Shown one piece after another: positions 16,251 through 24,623 of a stretch of DNA of 64,000 nucleotides. Positions within the stretch are counted from its first letter, which is position 1; each line of letters opens with the position of its first letter. The position numbers and the translations under genes are program-made. Below the pieces are notes generated by a model, which saw only the letters and a list, made by a program, of their open reading frames with translations, was not told the origin of the DNA and made no database searches. This DNA is from Candidatus Aminicenantota bacterium (GTDB taxonomy: Bacteria; Acidobacteriota; Aminicenantia; S016-38): the NCBI GenBank assembly GCA_027068075.1, contig JAMOUJ010000003.1, forward strand, positions 60,001 through 124,000, given 5' to 3'.

Positions 16251-17969
16251 TCATTTTTCTTCCCTCTTGAGTATTACGGAAACCGCCCTCCTCTCATCGG
16301 GCTTCAGAAACAGTTTGACCTCTTCGGGCTTGTATCCCTTTCTCACGAACTTGATGATGTGTTCCCCCGAGGCCAGGGAAAGTTTGTTTATGGGGGTGGT
16401 TCCCATGAACCTGCCGTCTATGTAAACATTGGCCCAGGGTTTTGAGTCTATGGTGGTTAGCATGGAGGAGAAGCCGAACTTCCGAACGACGGTCTTCCGT
16501 TCCCCTTCCCCCAGGGTAATCACCTGTTCCTGGACCTGCCCCCCGTAGAGGGGAAAGTATTTTACGGTATGCTCCCCGACCTTCAGGGCCACCGTCAAGG
16601 CCTTACCTGGCAGGACCTCCCCCACCTCCCTTCCATCCACTTCAACCCGGGCGGGATAATCCACCTTCAGGGTGAGGGTGGGCGACGAAGTTTCAGTCGG
16701 CCCGGGGGCGAATTCTCCGGAGAAACCCTCTCCTTCCAACTCTTCCCCCACGATGTCCACCGGTGGAAAAAGGTCCTCTTGGACTTCTCTGGACTCCACG
16801 GGCATGGGAAGAATCTCCGAATAGAGAAGAGTTCTACCCGGAGGCAAAGCCGCCTCCGTCCATCCCCCTCTCCCCGAAAGGAGGGAAAGGGGAAAGACCC
16901 GGGCTCCCCTGGAAGAGAGAAAATACCCCAACGCCCCCAGAACCGCCGCCAGCACCAGGGAAGCCAGGAGGAGGGGTAGCCTGCTCCTTCTGGACCTGGT
17001 AAGCCTCGCTTTTTCCCTCAGAGCCTCTATGTCCCGAAGCATCTCCGCCGCGCTGGAGTACCTGTTAGCCGGCTTCTTCTCCGTGGCCTTGAAAATTATC
17101 CTTTCCACTTCCGCAGGAAGGGAAGGGTTTACCTTCCGGGGCTCTGGCAGGGGCTCCTTCACATGCTTCCAAAGGATCTGGAGGGGAGAATCCCCCTCAA
17201 AGGGAAGCCTTCCGGTGAGCATTTCAAAGAGGGTGATGCCGAAGGAATAAACATCGGAGGCAGGGGTTATCTTTTCGCCCCTGGCCTGTTCCGGGGAAAG
17301 GTAGTGGGGAGTTCCAAGAAGTTGGCCGGACCGGGTGAGTTTCGTCCCGGCGTCCACCCTCTTGGCCAGGCCGAAATCCGTGAGAATGGCCCTTCCCGTC
17401 CCCTCCTCTATGATGATGTTGGAAGGCTTTATGTCCCTGTGGATTATCCCGCGGGCGTGCATGTAAGAGAGGGCCGAAAGGATGTCCCGGCTTATTTTAA
17501 GGGCCGCCTCCATGGGCAGGGAACCGCTCCTGGAAATAATGTCCCTGAGGTTCCTTCCCTCTATGTATTTCATTATCAAATAAGCCCGATTTCCCTCAAA
17601 GCCCACATCGTAGATGGGAACGATGTGGGGATGCTCCAGTTCCGCGTAAAGCCTGGCCTCCCTCAGGAACCTCTCCACGGCCTCCGAGGAGAAACCGGTA
17701 ACCTGGGACGAAAGAACCTTCAGAGCACATTTCCGCCTCAGGAGTTTGTCCTCCAGAAGAAAGACTTGGGAAAAACCTCCCTTCCCCAGGAAGCCCAGAA
17801 CCCTGTATTTTTTGGAGAGGGCTTCAAAAATCTCCTTGAACTCCCGGAGCGCATACTCGGGAATCTCCTTTATCTCCACGGTATTGCCCTCCAGTTGAGG
17901 AAAACCGCAATGGGGACAGAACTGGGCTCCCTCCGGGACCTCCCCTCCGCAATTAGGGCATTTTCCCAT
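16251..17969 (-). CDS. Ser/Thr protein kinase with zinc ribbon and PEGA domain
   Basis: A 572-residue transmembrane kinase. Order: a zinc ribbon (Cys 4, 7, 18, 21), the kinase domain with GKGGFSQV (62-69), Lys84, HRDIKPSN (177-184), DFG (198-200) and SPEQARGEK, one membrane helix (331-351), a linker, and a PEGA-like C-terminus (about 504-560: TTIDSKPWANVYIDGRFMG). All catalytic residues are present. The PEGA domain should lie on the periplasmic side and bind a cell-wall component. Upstream is a TTGACT/TATCAT promoter that ends 6 nt before the ATG with no SD. Confidence 0.92.
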   Translation of the reverse strand: MGKCPNCGGEVPEGAQFCPHCGFPQLEGNTVEIKEIPEYALREFKEIFEALSKKYRVLGFLGKGGFSQVFLLEDKLLRRKCALKVLSSQVTGFSSEAVERFLREARLYAELEHPHIVPIYDVGFEGNRAYLIMKYIEGRNLRDIISRSGSLPMEAALKISRDILSALSYMHARGIIHRDIKPSNIIIEEGTGRAILTDFGLAKRVDAGTKLTRSGQLLGTPHYLSPEQARGEKITPASDVYSFGITLFEMLTGRLPFEGDSPLQILWKHVKEPLPEPRKVNPSLPAEVERIIFKATEKKPANRYSSAAEMLRDIEALREKARLTRSRRSRLPLLLASLVLAAVLGALGYFLSSRGARVFPLSLLSGRGGWTEAALPPGRTLLYSEILPMPVESREVQEDLFPPVDIVGEELEGEGFSGEFAPGPTETSSPTLTLKVDYPARVEVDGREVGEVLPGKALTVALKVGEHTVKYFPLYGGQVQEQVITLGEGERKTVVRKFGFSSMLTTIDSKPWANVYIDGRFMGTTPINKLSLASGEHIIKFVRKGYKPEEVKLFLKPDERRAVSVILKREEK

Positions 17970-17975
17970 GGGTTT

Positions 17976-18004
17976 ATGATATATACATGCCGAAAGAAAG
18001 TCAA
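17976..18004 (-). promoter_or_regulatory. Promoter for the PEGA kinase
   Basis: Minus-strand -35 TTGACT at 17999-18004, a 17-nt spacer, and -10 TATCAT at 17976-17981. The last base of the -10 is separated by AAACCC from the kinase ATG at 17969. The -35 overlaps the stop codon of the SelB-like gene. No Shine-Dalgarno: leaderless. Confidence 0.65.
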
Positions 18005-19413
18005 CGCACCGAATAGGGGGGCTTCAATCGGTTCACGACCACCCTCCGGTGGGAGTTTTCCCTGCGGGTGATTCCCAGGGAATCCAGAAGTTCCAGGAGG
18101 GGTATGGCGTATTTTCTTGAGAGTCCCGTTATCTTCTTAAAATCCTGAATACTGAACTTCTCCATCCCCTTCAACTTCTCCAGCACATCTTCCAGGTAAT
18201 CCCTGTGGACCAGGAACCCTCCGGTAAAGAACACTACCCCTTCGCTTAGAAGTTTGGCTATTATCTGCTCCACCATTCTGCGGTTTTTCAGGCCCCGCAG
18301 AATTTTATCCATCTCCACCATGGAGGGTCTTATCATACCCTCCACCAGGTCCTGCATCTGCTGGAGTTTTCTTTCGTCCTCGGGGACGAACTCCGCCAGG
18401 GAAACGGCCTCCCCCCTCATCTTCAGCCGCCCCTGGGCGATGCCGGAGGAGAGGGCCAGGGAAAAAACCTCCTTTCCCACCCCCAACTTCTCCATGAGTT
18501 TTTCCTTCTCCATCCCCATGAGGTCAGGCCTGGCCCTGTGGAAGGGCTTGAGTTTTGCCTCCATTTTATCAACCAGTTCCTCCACCCCCTCCCGGCTGAG
18601 GGCAGAGAGTTCGGAAAAACTCAAAATTCTGATTTTCCCCTCTCCGCTGAGCCTTACCATCAACTCCTCTATGTAGGCCCTTCTCCATCCCGTCTGCAGC
18701 ATAATTTCCGCGGCGGAAATCGGCCTCCGAGCAAGATAAAGCAGGAACTCCTCGTCGGTAGTGGAGGGAACCCTCCTGCCCTCTCCCCTCCTTATTCTAA
18801 GAACCCTTCCGCAGAACCTGCGATTTTCGGAAGAAAGGATAATGGAATCGCCCCGGAAGAAAAGAAATGGATTGGAAAGTTTTAAAATGCCTTCCGAAAG
18901 ATAACCTCCGGTGGAAAATCCGTGTCCCAGAACCCTGTACTCTCCGTCGGGAGCCTCTCCCTCTATTTCGTATTCGTGGGATGGGGGGATCTCCTCCCCC
19001 ACCAGAACCACCCCCCTTCTGGGGGGCCTTCCGCCCTCAAAGGAAATCTTTAAAACCTGGGGAGACAAAATGCTGGATATGGGCTGGTTCAGAAACCGAA
19101 TCTCCTTCACCCTGAGCCAGGCTCCCCTGAGGGGAGCGTAAAGACTCATCCCCCGCCGGAGCCTTCCCCATTTTTTGATAAAGTATCCGTCACCGGCGCT
19201 AACCAGGTATGCGGTGGCCGGGGAGCGGAAGGGAGCCACCTCCCCCTTCCACGGGAGAAGACCGCAGGGACGAAAAGATTCCCCGGGGGAGTAATACAAG
19301 GCCAGGGTGGACCACTTCAGGGGACCGAGAACTTCACCTACTCTCAATTCCCCCTCTACCCTTTGGCGGACGGAAAATCTGGTTTCTTTAAAATAGACCA
19401 GGGCGTCCTTCAT
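18001..19413 (-). CDS. SelB-like protein lacking the GTPase domain
   Basis: A 470-residue protein matching the C-terminal part of the selenocysteine-specific elongation factor SelB. Residues about 66-210 resemble domains II and III (GHGFSTGGYLSEGILKLS, RGDSIIL). Residues about 215-470 follow the four winged helices, including KPFHRARPDLMGMEKEKL and the near-diagnostic FKKITGLSRKYAIPLLELLD with GITRR. SelB is about 600-640 residues and starts with an EF-Tu-like G domain; here no P-loop (GHxDxGKT), DxxG or NKxD is seen, and only about 65 unrecognised residues precede domain II. The ATG overlaps the pgi stop by 4 nt, so a missing upstream fragment is unlikely. Probably a repurposed RNA-binding paralogue. 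Confidence 0.78.
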   Translation of the reverse strand: MKDALVYFKETRFSVRQRVEGELRVGEVLGPLKWSTLALYYSPGESFRPCGLLPWKGEVAPFRSPATAYLVSAGDGYFIKKWGRLRRGMSLYAPLRGAWLRVKEIRFLNQPISSILSPQVLKISFEGGRPPRRGVVLVGEEIPPSHEYEIEGEAPDGEYRVLGHGFSTGGYLSEGILKLSNPFLFFRGDSIILSSENRRFCGRVLRIRRGEGRRVPSTTDEEFLLYLARRPISAAEIMLQTGWRRAYIEELMVRLSGEGKIRILSFSELSALSREGVEELVDKMEAKLKPFHRARPDLMGMEKEKLMEKLGVGKEVFSLALSSGIAQGRLKMRGEAVSLAEFVPEDERKLQQMQDLVEGMIRPSMVEMDKILRGLKNRRMVEQIIAKLLSEGVVFFTGGFLVHRDYLEDVLEKLKGMEKFSIQDFKKITGLSRKYAIPLLELLDSLGITRRENSHRRVVVNRLKPPYSVR

Positions 19414-20630
19414 GTGGTCCTTGCTTCCTCTGCCTTCGTCTTTCCCAGGAGCATATCTCTGGCCAGTTTTTTCATCCTCTCCACCCCAGGCTGATCAAAG
19501 GGGTTTACGCCGGCCAGACGGGAAATAAACCACACCTGAGATTGAAGAACCATGAGAAACTGCCCCAGAAACCTTTCCTCTATCCTGGGGACTTCCATGG
19601 CCAGGGTGGGTCTTCCGCTTTCCGCCAGGGCCCTCTGGGTGGAAAGGGCCATGACCCTGTATATCTGAGACATTTTTCTTCCGAAGAGGCCCGATTTAAT
19701 ACCCTCAATTTCAGGGACGAAGGGATCTCTGCGGAATTCCCCCACCCTCCAGAAGGTGTAGATTTTATCGTCGGGCCCGTCCAGGTAGAGTTGTAGTTTG
19801 GAGTGCTGGTCCACGGAACCCAGGTCAATAACCGGAGTGATTCCCCATCCGGCCTTTCCCAGACTTTCGCTGAAAAGTTGTCTATACCAGAAACCCGCAA
19901 AGTAAAGGTGCTCGCTGTAGGAAAGCACCACATGGATGTTCTTGCCCCTCTTCCACTCCTGATAGATGGCGGCGGCGGAAAACAGGGCGGGGTTTTCAAG
20001 GAGGGGTTTGGAACTCAGTTCTAACCCTTCCTTGGCCCCCCGGAGCAGGGCCTCCGTGTCCACGCCGGCCAGATAAAGGGGGACGAGGGCCACCGGGGAA
20101 AACACCGAAAACCTGCCGGGCAGGTATTCCGGCACGGAAAAGGTGATAAACCTCTCCGTCTCTGCCACGGTCTTCAGGGTTCCTCCGGAGGTGATGGCAA
20201 TGAAGCGCTCCCTTTCGGGGAAGCGCTGAAAAAGCACGGAAAAATTGGCCAGGGTTTCCGTGGTGTTTCCCGACTTGGAGATCACTATGAAGGCGGTGCG
20301 CTCCGGCTCCACCAGTTCTGCCAGTTCCTCCGCCCTTTCCGGGTCCACATTGTCAAAGAAAAAAATCCTCCTTCCCCGGGAGTTGAAACTGGCCGGGAGG
20401 AGGGCCCGGAGAAGGGCCTCGGCCCCCAGGGAACTTCCCCCTATGCCCACGATGACCAGGTCCCTGGGTTTGAACCCCTTGAGTTTTTCCTCTATTTCTT
20501 CCAGCCAGGGATGGGTCAATGCTTTGACGAAGGGAAGGCCCTCCCTTGCCCGAAGGAAATCCTCCAGGAGGTCACGGTAGCCGGAGGGAAGTTCGTAATA
20601 GGTGTAATCCAGAACAACTTTTCTTTCCAT
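19410..20630 (-). CDS. pgi: Glucose-6-phosphate isomerase
   Basis: A 406-residue Pgi, converting glucose-6-phosphate and fructose-6-phosphate. Landmarks: VIVGIGGSSLGAEALLRAL and FIVISKSGNTTETLANF (sugar-phosphate site), FSVFSPVALVPLYLAG, WKRGKNIHVVLSYSE and DQHSKLQLYLDG. The size matches the short bacterial type (about 400-450). It lies 17 nt after rnr and overlaps the SelB-like gene by 4 nt. An AAGGTGAT sits 12 nt ahead of the ATG, so it is probably read from the operon. Confidence 0.93.
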   Translation of the reverse strand: MERKVVLDYTYYELPSGYRDLLEDFLRAREGLPFVKALTHPWLEEIEEKLKGFKPRDLVIVGIGGSSLGAEALLRALLPASFNSRGRRIFFFDNVDPERAEELAELVEPERTAFIVISKSGNTTETLANFSVLFQRFPERERFIAITSGGTLKTVAETERFITFSVPEYLPGRFSVFSPVALVPLYLAGVDTEALLRGAKEGLELSSKPLLENPALFSAAAIYQEWKRGKNIHVVLSYSEHLYFAGFWYRQLFSESLGKAGWGITPVIDLGSVDQHSKLQLYLDGPDDKIYTFWRVGEFRRDPFVPEIEGIKSGLFGRKMSQIYRVMALSTQRALAESGRPTLAMEVPRIEERFLGQFLMVLQSQVWFISRLAGVNPFDQPGVERMKKLARDMLLGKTKAEEARTT

Positions 20631-20647
20631 GGAAATATGATATCACC

Positions 20648-22729
20648 TTATTTCTTGGTTTTTCTGGACCTTTTGCTCTTCTTTTTCTTCTTTTTTCTCT
20701 TTTCCTTTTCTCCCTCCGCCGGAAAGAGGTATATGGTTCTGCGATAAGGATCAATGGAGCCCAGAATAACATCTATTTTCTGGCCGATCCTGTAAGTTTT
20801 CCCGCTCCTCTTTCCCCGGGCGATCCAACCGTCGCTCACCACGAAATAATCCTCCTTCATGTCCGAGAAGAGGACGGAGCCCTGGATCATGTATTTGTCC
20901 AGTTCCACATGGAGGCCATCGCTTCCCACACCCACGATCACACCGGAAAACCTTTCGCCGATTTTCTCCGCAAGAAACCGCACCGTTCTCCAGTGTATGA
21001 GTTCCGCCTCCATCTGGTCCGCCCGCCTCTCCGTGAAGGAACTGTGGGCGGCTATTTTTTCAAGTTCCTTCTCGCCGTAGGGAGGAGGAGAACCCGCCAG
21101 GGCCGCCTTTACCGTTCTGTGAACCACCAGGTCCGGATACCTCCTTATGGGCGATGTGAAATGGAGGTAATCCTCCTTGGCCAGGGCGAAATGCCCCCGG
21201 GGCTCCGGGGAATACTTGGCCAGTTTAAGAGAGCGGAGAATCATTATGTTTATGAGTTTTTCCTCCTCCTTTCCCTGGGCCTGCTCCACCACCCTCTGAA
21301 GGTCCCCCACGGTAATTTCCTCCCCTTCCAGACGATAGCCAAATATGGCGAGGACCTTTTTAAGAGATTCAATTTTCCTGGGGTCCGGGGGCTCGTGAAT
21401 TCGGAATATGGTGGGATAACCCTTGCTCCGAAGGAAATGGGCCACGGACTCGTTGGCGGCCAGCATGAATTCCTCTATTATCTGATGGGCAAAATTCCTT
21501 TCAAAGGGGAGTATGTCCAGAAGAATACCGTCCTCGGTGTATATGAACTCCGGTTCAGGAAGGTCAAAATCCAAACTTCCCATCCTCCGGCGACGGCTCA
21601 AAAGGGCCTCCGCCGCCTCCGCCATGGTCTCCAGGGAAGGAAGGATGTGCTGGTATTGCCTTCTCAGGTCCTTATCCCCCTGGAGAATGGCCCAGACCTT
21701 GTTGTAGGTCATCCTCTCGGCGCTGCGTATGACCGAGGGGTAAATCCTGTAGGCCCTCACTTCCCCCTGCCTGTTTATGTCCATTTCCACGGTCATGGTA
21801 AATCGGTCTTCCCTGGGCCTCAGAGATGCCAGGTCTTCGCTCAGGGCTGGAGGGAGCATGGGGACCGCCCTTTCGGGGAAGTATATGGAATTGCCCCGCA
21901 GGGCTCCTTCGGCATCCAGGAGGGTCCCTTTCCTCACGAAGTGGGAAACATCGGCAATGTGAACTCCCAGGCGGTATCCCCCCCTTATTTTCTTTATGCT
22001 AACTGCATCGTCAAAGTCCTTGGCGGTCTCGCCGTCTATGGTGAAAATCACCTCCCTCCTCAGGTCCTTTCTTTTGAGTTTTTCCCTGGGTTTATCTATC
22101 TTCAGATCCGGAAATTCCACGGGAACATCGTAGTGGGCCAGGATGGCTTCCACATCCTTCCCAGGCTCCTGGGGATCCCCTATGACCCTTTTAACCACGC
22201 ATTTTTTGCCCGAAAGTTCCGCCTCCACCAGATGCCCCTGGATTATGGGCTCCGTGGGGATTTTCTTCACCTCCACCTCCGGGAGCCTCCTCTCCACCGG
22301 AATCACCACCGGCATTTTCCTCTCCCACACGAAGAATCCCGCCACCTTCTTCCGCTTCCTCTCCACCACCCGCAAAATTCTCCCTTCGGTCTTGGTTCCC
22401 TTCTTTATTATCAGGGCCTCCACTATGTCTCCGTGGAGGGCGTCCTTTTTAAACCTCCTGGGAATGAAAAAATCCCCCTTGGGGGTAACCAGAAATCCGT
22501 ATCCGAACTGGGTATCCTCAAACCTCCCCTGGACCACATCCACGCTGGAGGAAAGCATGTACTTCTTTCCCACCCTCACCACCAGACCGGATTTTATCAG
22601 GCGGTTCAATTCCCTCTTCAACTGCTTCTCCTTGCCCTTCTTCAGCCTGAGTTGGTCCTTTAATTGCCTGAAGGTCGCTCCTCTGGCATTTCTCTTTAAA
22701 ACCTTTAGTATACTATCCCTCCATCCCAT
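20648..22729 (-). CDS. rnr: Ribonuclease R (RNase II family exoribonuclease)
   Basis: A 693-residue RNase R-type 3'-to-5' exoribonuclease. N-terminal winged helix (about 1-60), cold-shock domains (about 65-230), the RNB catalytic domain starting near FTIDGETAKDFDDAVSI with metal Asp residues in DFDDAV, RIHEPPDP and TSPIRRYPDLVVHR, and an S1 domain (GVIVGVGSDGLHVEL). It ends with a basic lysine-rich tail, as in RNase R. SD AAAGGAGAG precedes the ATG. It follows the pseudokinase gene by 25 nt in the same strand run. Confidence 0.93.
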   Translation of the reverse strand: MGWRDSILKVLKRNARGATFRQLKDQLRLKKGKEKQLKRELNRLIKSGLVVRVGKKYMLSSSVDVVQGRFEDTQFGYGFLVTPKGDFFIPRRFKKDALHGDIVEALIIKKGTKTEGRILRVVERKRKKVAGFFVWERKMPVVIPVERRLPEVEVKKIPTEPIIQGHLVEAELSGKKCVVKRVIGDPQEPGKDVEAILAHYDVPVEFPDLKIDKPREKLKRKDLRREVIFTIDGETAKDFDDAVSIKKIRGGYRLGVHIADVSHFVRKGTLLDAEGALRGNSIYFPERAVPMLPPALSEDLASLRPREDRFTMTVEMDINRQGEVRAYRIYPSVIRSAERMTYNKVWAILQGDKDLRRQYQHILPSLETMAEAAEALLSRRRRMGSLDFDLPEPEFIYTEDGILLDILPFERNFAHQIIEEFMLAANESVAHFLRSKGYPTIFRIHEPPDPRKIESLKKVLAIFGYRLEGEEITVGDLQRVVEQAQGKEEEKLINIMILRSLKLAKYSPEPRGHFALAKEDYLHFTSPIRRYPDLVVHRTVKAALAGSPPPYGEKELEKIAAHSSFTERRADQMEAELIHWRTVRFLAEKIGERFSGVIVGVGSDGLHVELDKYMIQGSVLFSDMKEDYFVVSDGWIARGKRSGKTYRIGQKIDVILGSIDPYRRTIYLFPAEGEKEKRKKKKKKSKRSRKTKK

Positions 22730-22754: not shown

Positions 22755-24623
22755 TTACTTGAACTGAATGGTTACTACCTTCCAGACCTTCACGGGAACC
22801 CCCCTCTTGCGGGGAGGCGAAAACTTCCACTTGAGGAGGGTTCTGTAGGCTTCCTCCTCAAAGAACCCCTTGGGGGTAGCCCTTATGATTCTGACCTGAG
22901 CCACATTGCCGTTTTCGTCTATCAGTATTGAGGCCATAACGCTGCCCCGCACCCTGAGACGCAACGCCTTCACCGGCATCCTGGGCGACACCCTTTTTAT
23001 AAGGCGGAGGGGAACATCCAGTTCGTTTATGGGAACCACGGAGCCCGGGGTCACCGCCGGTTTGATTTCCCGGGAGGATTCCTGGGAAGAAGGGGCAGAA
23101 GGCTTCACCTCCTCCGGGGGTTTCGCCTGAGTTTCCCCGGAAACCTCTTTCTCCTCAGTCTTTTCCGCTTCCTGCTTTTCAGGCAGGGAAACCTCCCCCT
23201 GGGATTTCACCTGCTCCGCCACCGTCGGAGTCTCCGGAGTCTGCTCCTGGCTCTTTTCCGGCTGGATCGGGGGCGTCTCTGATTCCACCTGGGTCTGAAC
23301 TTCCTCCTGCTTCTGGGCTTCCGCCTGGGCGAACTGCTGCCTCCTCATCTGCGCCAGGACCCTCTGCCTTTCCTTTTCCAGGGCCTTCTTCAACTCCTCC
23401 TCCTTCTGGGCTGTGAGTTTTCCGTATTTTTCTTCGTATTCCTTTCTTATGAGCGCTTCCCTCTCCTTCATCTTCTGTTCCACCAACTGGTTTATCCGCC
23501 GCTCCATTTCCTCCGGACTCAAGCCCCTGGGGGCCGGCTTCTTAAGCAGAAATAGCCCGGCGATCACGAGAAGAAGGAGGGCCGCCAGTGCTCCGGCCAG
23601 GATGGCCGGAAACTTCTTCTTCTCCTCCACCACCCCTTCCACCAGGGGCTTTTTCTCCTCCGGCTCCTCTATTATCTCCACGGGAACCTTACCCCGGCTT
23701 TCCCGGATCAGCCTCTCCCTCTCCTCCTTTTCCTCCTGGAAGAGGGTGTTCATGTAGTAGGCGAGGTTGAAGGTGGTGGGGGTTATGTCCTCTTCAGCCA
23801 CGAAGGCCTCCAGGGCCTCCGTAAACTCCGCCATGGTCTTGAAGCGGGCCTCCGCCGGGGCCAGGGCCTTTTTCAGAATTTCCCTCAGGGCCCCGGGAAT
23901 TTCCTCTCCCCCTTCCCACCTGGCGATCATCCTGGCTTCCTTCAACTGGGCATCCAGGTCCCTCTGGGGGGAAAGAAGTTTTCCCGTTAGAAGGTAAAAA
24001 AGCAATACCCCCACCGAATATATATCCGCCTGGGGGCCGGGCTTCTTCCTGTCAAGTATCTCCGGGGCAAGGAAGGCGGACCTCTCCACCGCCAGTTCCC
24101 CGGCCAGGGACCTGTCCTGGGAGTAGACGGTCTGATAAATTCCGAAGTTCGCTATGTAAACCACCCCATCCAGACTGATCATTATGTCCTCGGGGGTGAT
24201 CAGGTTGTGATATATAGGGCTCCCCTTGTAACTGGTGTTGGCAAGGTATTGTAGCCCCGTGCTCAACTGAAAGATGGCCTGAATGGGGATGTCAAAGGAA
24301 AAGGGGAGGTCCCGTTTTTTCAACTGGGCCAGGACGGAGGATAGGGAAAAGAACTCCCGACACCTGGTGGCGGCGTAATAACCGTCCCTGCACTTACCCC
24401 ACACATCGTAGGGCAGAATGTTGGGATGGGAAAGTTTCCTGGAAAAGCGGAAAAATTCGGTGAGGGCGGTCCAGAGTTTGGGTTTATGGTATTCCTCCCG
24501 AACCTCCACCAGCATGTAATCCCTGAGTTTTTTCTCCTCGTCCCTGGTTACCGAATAGAAAACTCCTCCCAGGGCGTTGCTTCCGACCTTTTTAAGTTCG
24601 TAGAATCTACAGAACTTTTTCAT
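22755..24623 (-). CDS. Pseudokinase-transmembrane-TonB C-terminal fusion
   Basis: A 622-residue protein. Residues 1-275 have a protein-kinase fold: GSNALGGVF (Gly loop), FLAPEIL (APE), ADIYSVGVLLFYLLTG. But the VAIK lysine is replaced by Glu40 (MLVEV), HRD by HNL (139-141), the catalytic-loop Asn by Asp146, and DFG by NFG (159-161). It is therefore very probably inactive. A membrane helix (339-360) is followed by a charged coiled coil (about 366-440), a Pro/Glu/Gln-rich linker (445-525) and a TonB C-terminal domain (about 556-622: ILIDENGNVAQVRII, KWKFSPPRKRGVPV). The helix lacks the classical TonB SHLS motif, so coupling to ExbBD is uncertain. It sits between a TPR gene and rnr. Confidence 0.83.
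   Translation of the reverse strand: MKKFCRFYELKKVGSNALGGVFYSVTRDEEKKLRDYMLVEVREEYHKPKLWTALTEFFRFSRKLSHPNILPYDVWGKCRDGYYAATRCREFFSLSSVLAQLKKRDLPFSFDIPIQAIFQLSTGLQYLANTSYKGSPIYHNLITPEDIMISLDGVVYIANFGIYQTVYSQDRSLAGELAVERSAFLAPEILDRKKPGPQADIYSVGVLLFYLLTGKLLSPQRDLDAQLKEARMIARWEGGEEIPGALREILKKALAPAEARFKTMAEFTEALEAFVAEEDITPTTFNLAYYMNTLFQEEKEERERLIRESRGKVPVEIIEEPEEKKPLVEGVVEEKKKFPAILAGALAALLLLVIAGLFLLKKPAPRGLSPEEMERRINQLVEQKMKEREALIRKEYEEKYGKLTAQKEEELKKALEKERQRVLAQMRRQQFAQAEAQKQEEVQTQVESETPPIQPEKSQEQTPETPTVAEQVKSQGEVSLPEKQEAEKTEEKEVSGETQAKPPEEVKPSAPSSQESSREIKPAVTPGSVVPINELDVPLRLIKRVSPRMPVKALRLRVRGSVMASILIDENGNVAQVRIIRATPKGFFEEEAYRTLLKWKFSPPRKRGVPVKVWKVVTIQFK

Follow-up and report, generated by a model that had tools for sequence, protein, structure and literature searches.

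In true SelB, the fourth winged helix (WH4) is the head that binds the SECIS hairpin. Domain 4 of SelB holds the hairpin beside the ribosome, and SelB touches the 30S shoulder (PMC5311926). RNase R, the product of rnr, binds the 30S platform and degrades 16S rRNA (PMC10901742). In E. coli, RNase R needs SmpB for ribosome association, and in B. subtilis rnr and smpB share one operon, SmpB being the partner that recruits RNase R to the ribosome (PMC12320835).

Here we present a SelB-derived protein that lacks the GTPase (G) domain, encoded in a 64,000-nt stretch of DNA that is referred to as the window. For such G-less proteins we use "orphan" as shorthand; the copy in the window belongs to family f1. 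Among the open-access papers searched, we found nothing on a G-less bacterial SelB or on selenocysteine (Sec) in Aminicenantes. Surveys of translational GTPases query with the G domain and are blind to proteins of this kind. The family illustrates clearly how an elongation factor can shed its engine and yet be kept, as a predicted RNA-binding protein, by an entire bacterial class.

Domain organization of the orphan protein

The orphan gene starts with ATG, and its features are collected in Table 1. Pfam identified SelB-wing_3 at residues 414-457 (9.4e-16; 57.5 bits against a gathering cut-off of 23.2) and SelB-wing_2 at residues 287-339 (2.3e-6; 28.0 bits against 22.3), with no GTPase family at E<=10. 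The score for the NCBIfam selB model (TIGR00475), 36.5 bits, is below the curated cut-off of 242, and the top PDB sequence match is 1LVA, a C-terminal fragment of Moorella SelB (4.6e-13). Using hhalign, a profile of six close relatives was aligned to 17 full-length SelBs, 16 of them acidobacterial, and matched columns 169-641, from domain II to WH4 (E 1.7e-33).

Table 1. Positions of the orphan gene, its predicted domains and the adjacent genes in the window
Feature	Position	Strand	Evidence
G-less SelB-derived protein, 470 aa (domain II - III - WH1-4)	18001..19413	-	Pfam, hhalign, AlphaFold2, Foldseek
Winged helix 4 (Pfam SelB-wing_3), residues 404-460; most conserved part	18034..18204	-	Pfam, conservation, AlphaFold2
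Winged helix 3, residues 345-403	18205..18381	-	AlphaFold2
Winged helix 2 (Pfam SelB-wing_2), residues 274-344	18382..18594	-	Pfam, AlphaFold2
Winged helix 1, residues 213-273	18595..18777	-	AlphaFold2 secondary structure
EF domain III-like beta barrel, residues 141-212	18778..18993	-	hhalign, AlphaFold2, Foldseek
EF domain II-like segment, residues 75-140	18994..19191	-	hhalign to SelB; medium pLDDT; Foldseek EF-Tu ~180 columns
N-terminal 74 residues at the G domain position, no confident fold	19192..19413	-	pLDDT <50; alignment
Stop codon of pgi and start codon of the orphan, overlapping as ATGA	19410..19413	-	Sequence
pgi, glucose-6-phosphate isomerase	19410..20630	-	Pfam PGI
rnr, RNase R (CSD-CSD-RNB-S1, Lys-rich tail)	20648..22729	-	Pfam RNB 3e-110

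The AlphaFold2 model of the orphan (pLDDT 79.8), whose alignment held SelB rows from domain II on, so that the prediction was not SelB-blind, is confident for domain III (145-207) and the four winged helices (220-458), and of medium confidence for domain II. Conservation of the poorly modelled N-terminal 74 residues is limited to family f1. A second model, of a short family member aligned with no SelB rows (pLDDT 88.9), gave the same domain III and WH1-4. In Foldseek, the best matches of the window model were ribosome-bound SelB (5LZB; 441 columns, 4e-18) and then EF-Sec (4ZU9).

The preliminary description had proposed domains II-III followed by four winged helices, a missing G domain and a start that does not reflect a truncated longer gene. 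All of this is borne out: the architecture was recovered by Pfam, hhalign, AlphaFold2 and Foldseek (domain II at medium confidence), structure prediction followed by Foldseek returned SelB, the alignment begins only at SelB column 169, and the ATG overlaps the pgi stop, an arrangement for which translational coupling is likely. The protein, with a pI of 9.7, cannot act as a GTP-driven elongation factor.

Distribution, erosion and conservation of the family

In a scan of named genomes, relatives fell in Acidobacteriota, Candidatus Aminicenantes. G-less loci with an adjoining rnr came from genomes titled Aminicenantes or from MAGs of the same clade titled Acidobacteria(-ota) or bacterium; the other full-length acidobacterial matches were SelBs with a G domain. 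The G-less SelB derivative is near-universal in the class. A SelB-wing_3 protein, mostly in a frame of 250-500 codons, was found in 75/80 Aminicenantes genomes and 31/31 sampled genera, and the conservation in relatives that had been marked for checking is thereby confirmed. Among the five genomes with no match, the gene is cut by a contig end in one (G002), and the rest, all of family f5, are fragmented. True SelB over cut-off occurs in 14 of the 80 genomes, and SelA in 16. An unbiased PF09107 search took in 297 genomes of the phylum; nearly all matches listed outside the class lay in frames of 560-1200 codons and five in short frames, two of these <=300 bases from a contig start. The full-length SelBs of genus g5 (L047-L049, L051) occupy open frames of 1048-1063 codons, probably because of open frames in GC-rich DNA, an N-terminal extension being the alternative.

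A maximum likelihood tree built on the winged-helix region unites all the G-less proteins, the divergent f5 form among them, in a single clade (support 99/97), which sits with acidobacterial SelBs and apart from the SelBs owned by some Aminicenantes; its deeper placement is tentative, given the long branches. Family lengths span 255-470 aa. Whereas family f1 retains domains II-III and WH1-4, most other families start in domain III (hhalign to SelB 277-642, E 9e-50; Foldseek 1LVA and 5LZB), and some members consist of WH1-4 alone (255-270 aa). The family has thus eroded stepwise from the N-terminus, from II-III-WH1-4 through III-WH1-4 to WH1-4 only. Early in Candidatus Aminicenantes, a single event would have removed the GTPase domain of SelB, the remainder being kept as a stand-alone RNA-binding protein.

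Comparison of orphans with SelBs gave 49% identity between the two groups in WH4 and 16-23% in every other domain. Invariant across 23 orphans and 16 SelBs are R433, K434, Y435, I437, P438, L439, L440, E441, L443, D444, T449, R451 and R456, so that the RNA-binding core, which the preliminary description had singled out for inspection, is retained. The Arg of the SRKY motif probably corresponds to the SECIS-contacting Arg606 in the Moorella protein. One change is consistent and group-specific: Y442L, which turns the LEYLD of SelB into the LELLD of the orphan family and may alter ligand choice. To judge from these alignments, WH4 is the constrained part, and the series of N-terminal erosion shows selection keeping the putative hairpin-binding head.

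Between the window and its two nearest relatives, dN/dS is 0.125-0.144 for the orphan, 0.160-0.171 for pgi and 0.080-0.085 for rnr, values that are rough because dS is >1. The orphan is under purifying selection like its neighbours and is a working gene. Furthermore, with a whole frame and a start that overlaps the pgi stop, the 470-aa ORF is intact rather than broken.

Linkage to rnr and candidate functions

The preliminary description had spoken of a pgi-linked form, a label that did not hold: pgi is a variable neighbour, and the constant partner is rnr. In families f1, f3 and f6, pgi separates rnr from the orphan, and in f2 it adjoins the orphan; it is missing from the locus in f4 and f7-f10, where rnr is the direct neighbour. 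The 59 loci counted outside f5, which include six duplicates across two collections, comprise 43 rnr-orphan, 9 rnr-pgi-orphan and 4 pgi-orphan arrangements and 3 at a contig end. With duplicates removed, the orphan lies directly downstream of rnr or rnr-pgi at 46 distinct loci, and the rnr-orphan pairs mostly overlap or lie within about 100 bp. Of the four pgi-orphan loci, one is that of G021 (family f2), and the other three break off too early to reveal any rnr. Among assessable loci, rnr linkage is missing only in G021 and in f5, a divergent member located away from rnr. No rnr was found beside any of the full-length SelBs examined.

In G021 (L090:5988-8657), PGI and the SelB-derived protein form one 889-aa ORF with a charged linker; rnr does not adjoin it, and this fusion was not found in other relatives. 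An apparent rnr-orphan fusion in G069, a 1067-codon open frame, was rejected: the genome is GC-rich, and the open frame covers two genes that overlap in different reading frames.

Frozen gene order may explain part of the linkage in f4, f7, f8 and f10, where the conserved stretch is larger and comprises genes resembling valS, birA and coaX by sequence, a 213-aa gene, rnr and the orphan. In f1 neither flank is common to other families, yet the rnr-pgi-orphan unit persists. The conserved ~213-aa protein (L076:6249-6887, plus strand), directly upstream of rnr in several families, has no Pfam match. Convergent to the orphan in most families is the gene of a conserved ~690-aa protein (L076:10182-12263, minus strand) with no Pfam match at E<=0.01, which adjoins carbamoyltransferase-like and kinase-like genes. 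In the window, the unit is flanked by a Ser/Thr kinase gene (16251-17969, minus strand; zinc ribbon, kinase and PEGA domains by Pfam), and upstream of rnr by a second gene, kinase-like by sequence (22755-24623, minus strand). This placement between two kinase-type genes is common to the window and G003, and its upstream part also to G001. A phage origin was rejected, as no convincing PHROG match was obtained.

The rnr linkage suggests that an old translation factor has been reused in RNA or ribosome turnover. Since RNase R acts at the 30S subunit, SelB domain 4 holds a hairpin by the ribosome and the orphan lies in an rnr operon, the reading that we favour, at somewhat less than an even chance, is that the orphan is an accessory of RNase R that binds structured RNA or the 30S subunit. 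WH4 would grip structured RNA, for instance a hairpin that may lie in rRNA or in the mRNA of a stalled ribosome, while WH1-3 and, where kept, the EF-like beta barrels would rest on the small ribosomal subunit or a partner protein, as in SelB. The orphan would in this way bring RNase R to structured RNA or 30S particles, or regulate it there, a role that would parallel that of SmpB for RNase R in trans-translation. Both smpB and tmRNA were found elsewhere in the source genome (smpB in 39/40 genomes searched), and we accordingly rejected the orphan as a replacement for SmpB; with an intact smpB present, it would add to SmpB. Against a role as RNase R accessory count the G021 fusion, in which the partner is PGI and not RNase R, and the net charge of the window's WH4, which is only slightly positive. 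In f5, moreover, partnership with RNase R is not obligatory.

Extended to the whole class, this reading becomes a doubtful proposition: that SelB, after loss of Sec or duplication, shed its GTPase and became a hairpin- or 30S-binding adaptor steering RNase R. If true, such a dedicated targeting factor would add a third recruitment route for RNase R to the two through SmpB/tmRNA and through direct 30S binding. The rnr linkage makes a testable claim of how RNase R finds structured RNA or 30S subunits.

A translational regulator, as the preliminary description had suggested, but with no part in RNase R function, is an unlikely alternative. In it, WH4 would bind hairpins in a set of mRNAs, and the ribosome would be blocked or paused by the EF-like body, comparable to SECIS-bound SelB at the approach to the A site. 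SECIS-bound SelB does block access of RF2 to the A site (PMC5311926), and WH4 is conserved as in SelB. The retention of domains II-III in f1 and of domain III in most families is consistent with such a body, as are the f5 members with their genes away from rnr. However, in members reduced to WH1-4 the body is dispensable, and the strict rnr linkage outside f5 is left unexplained.

The same operon context, together with the basic character of the protein and the fact that winged helices are common DNA-binding folds, could point to an autoregulator of the rnr operon or a transcription factor controlling rnr expression. We regard this as improbable: what is conserved is SelB's RNA-specific head, WH4, which is not a DNA-binding family, four tandem winged helices with EF barrels would be unusual for a transcription factor, and the 64,000-nt window holds no Rfam element. 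More improbable still is a function as glucose-6-phosphate isomerase partner or metabolic sensor, for which the pgi overlap in f1, the adjacency in f2, f3 and f6 and the G021 fusion could be cited; most families (f4, f7-f10) have no pgi at the locus and rnr adjoining directly.

The source genome (1.9 Mb, 9 contigs, 100% complete) bears on the remaining explanations. Searched with TIGR00475, it holds no SelB over cut-off; the matches are IF-2, two EF-G, LepA and EF-Tu fragments at contig ends, plus two weak partial ones (E 0.009 and 0.04). A remote, frame-shifted or split G domain was rejected, since all strong matches are other GTPases. SelA was not found in any of the seven genomes of the window's family, the source genome included, and all SelD matches in the source genome fell below cut-off. 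Nor was tRNA-Sec found there: the best RF01852 match over cut-off is tRNA-Ser(UGA) by ARAGORN, and a cryptic tRNA-Sec was rejected on that ground. In this genome, the 771-kb contig G000:C5 carries the initial codons of EF-Tu at either end (L036, L037), the sign of a tuf duplication at which the assembly broke.

A split SelB, with domain I provided in trans by another GTPase so that selenocysteine can be inserted, has the domain make-up in its favour and nothing beyond, and is ruled out for this organism, whose complete genome lacks SelA, SelD, tRNA-Sec and any unassigned SelB-like G domain. A functionless relic, as the preliminary description had allowed, or an assembly or frameshift artefact would fit the missing Sec machinery but is refuted, given the G-less form in 31 genera, its intact frames, the start overlapping the upstream stop and purifying selection (dN/dS about 0.13). 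The term paralogue was likewise given up, the genome having no SelB and the clade grouping with other acidobacterial SelBs; to judge from sequence comparison, the window's orphan looks like a repurposed ancestral SelB. For annotation, orphan genes are no evidence of selenocysteine use.

Comparison with known systems

The closest system is bacterial SelB itself (TIGR00475; PDB 4ZU9, 5LZB, 1LVA, 2UWM), which has domains II-III and WH1-4 in the same order and a nearly identical WH4 core, and with whose acidobacterial members the orphans group in the tree. In contrast to SelB, the orphan lacks the GTPase domain (P-loop, DxxG, NKxD), carries LELLD in place of LEYLD, lies in an rnr operon, ranges over 255-470 aa and, in the source genome, has no Sec machinery around it. 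It cannot be classed as a SelB, given the missing G domain, the low model score and the Sec context, and the orphans constitute a SelB-derived protein family.

The fold of eukaryotic SBP2 is unrelated to that of the SelB-derived orphan. SBP2 binds an RNA hairpin on its own, apart from the GTPase (PMC4342817), as is predicted for the orphan, but it serves Sec insertion, which is absent from the source genome. SmpB is likewise a small RNA- and ribosome-binding protein encoded directly downstream of rnr (PMC12320835), as is predicted of the orphan's binding; it differs from the orphan in fold and family, and its gene stands separately in the source genome. Archaeal aSelBL is, like the orphan, a non-classical SelB derivative that occurs more widely than Sec itself and has a lost or doubtful GTPase function (PMC3037878). 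Under its definition, a disrupted G domain is retained and the C-terminal domain is missing, and by Pfam the window's orphan falls outside it (PMC3037878). The two are thus mirror images: in aSelBL a degenerate G domain survives and the C-terminal mRNA-binding domain is gone, and the orphan is the reverse.
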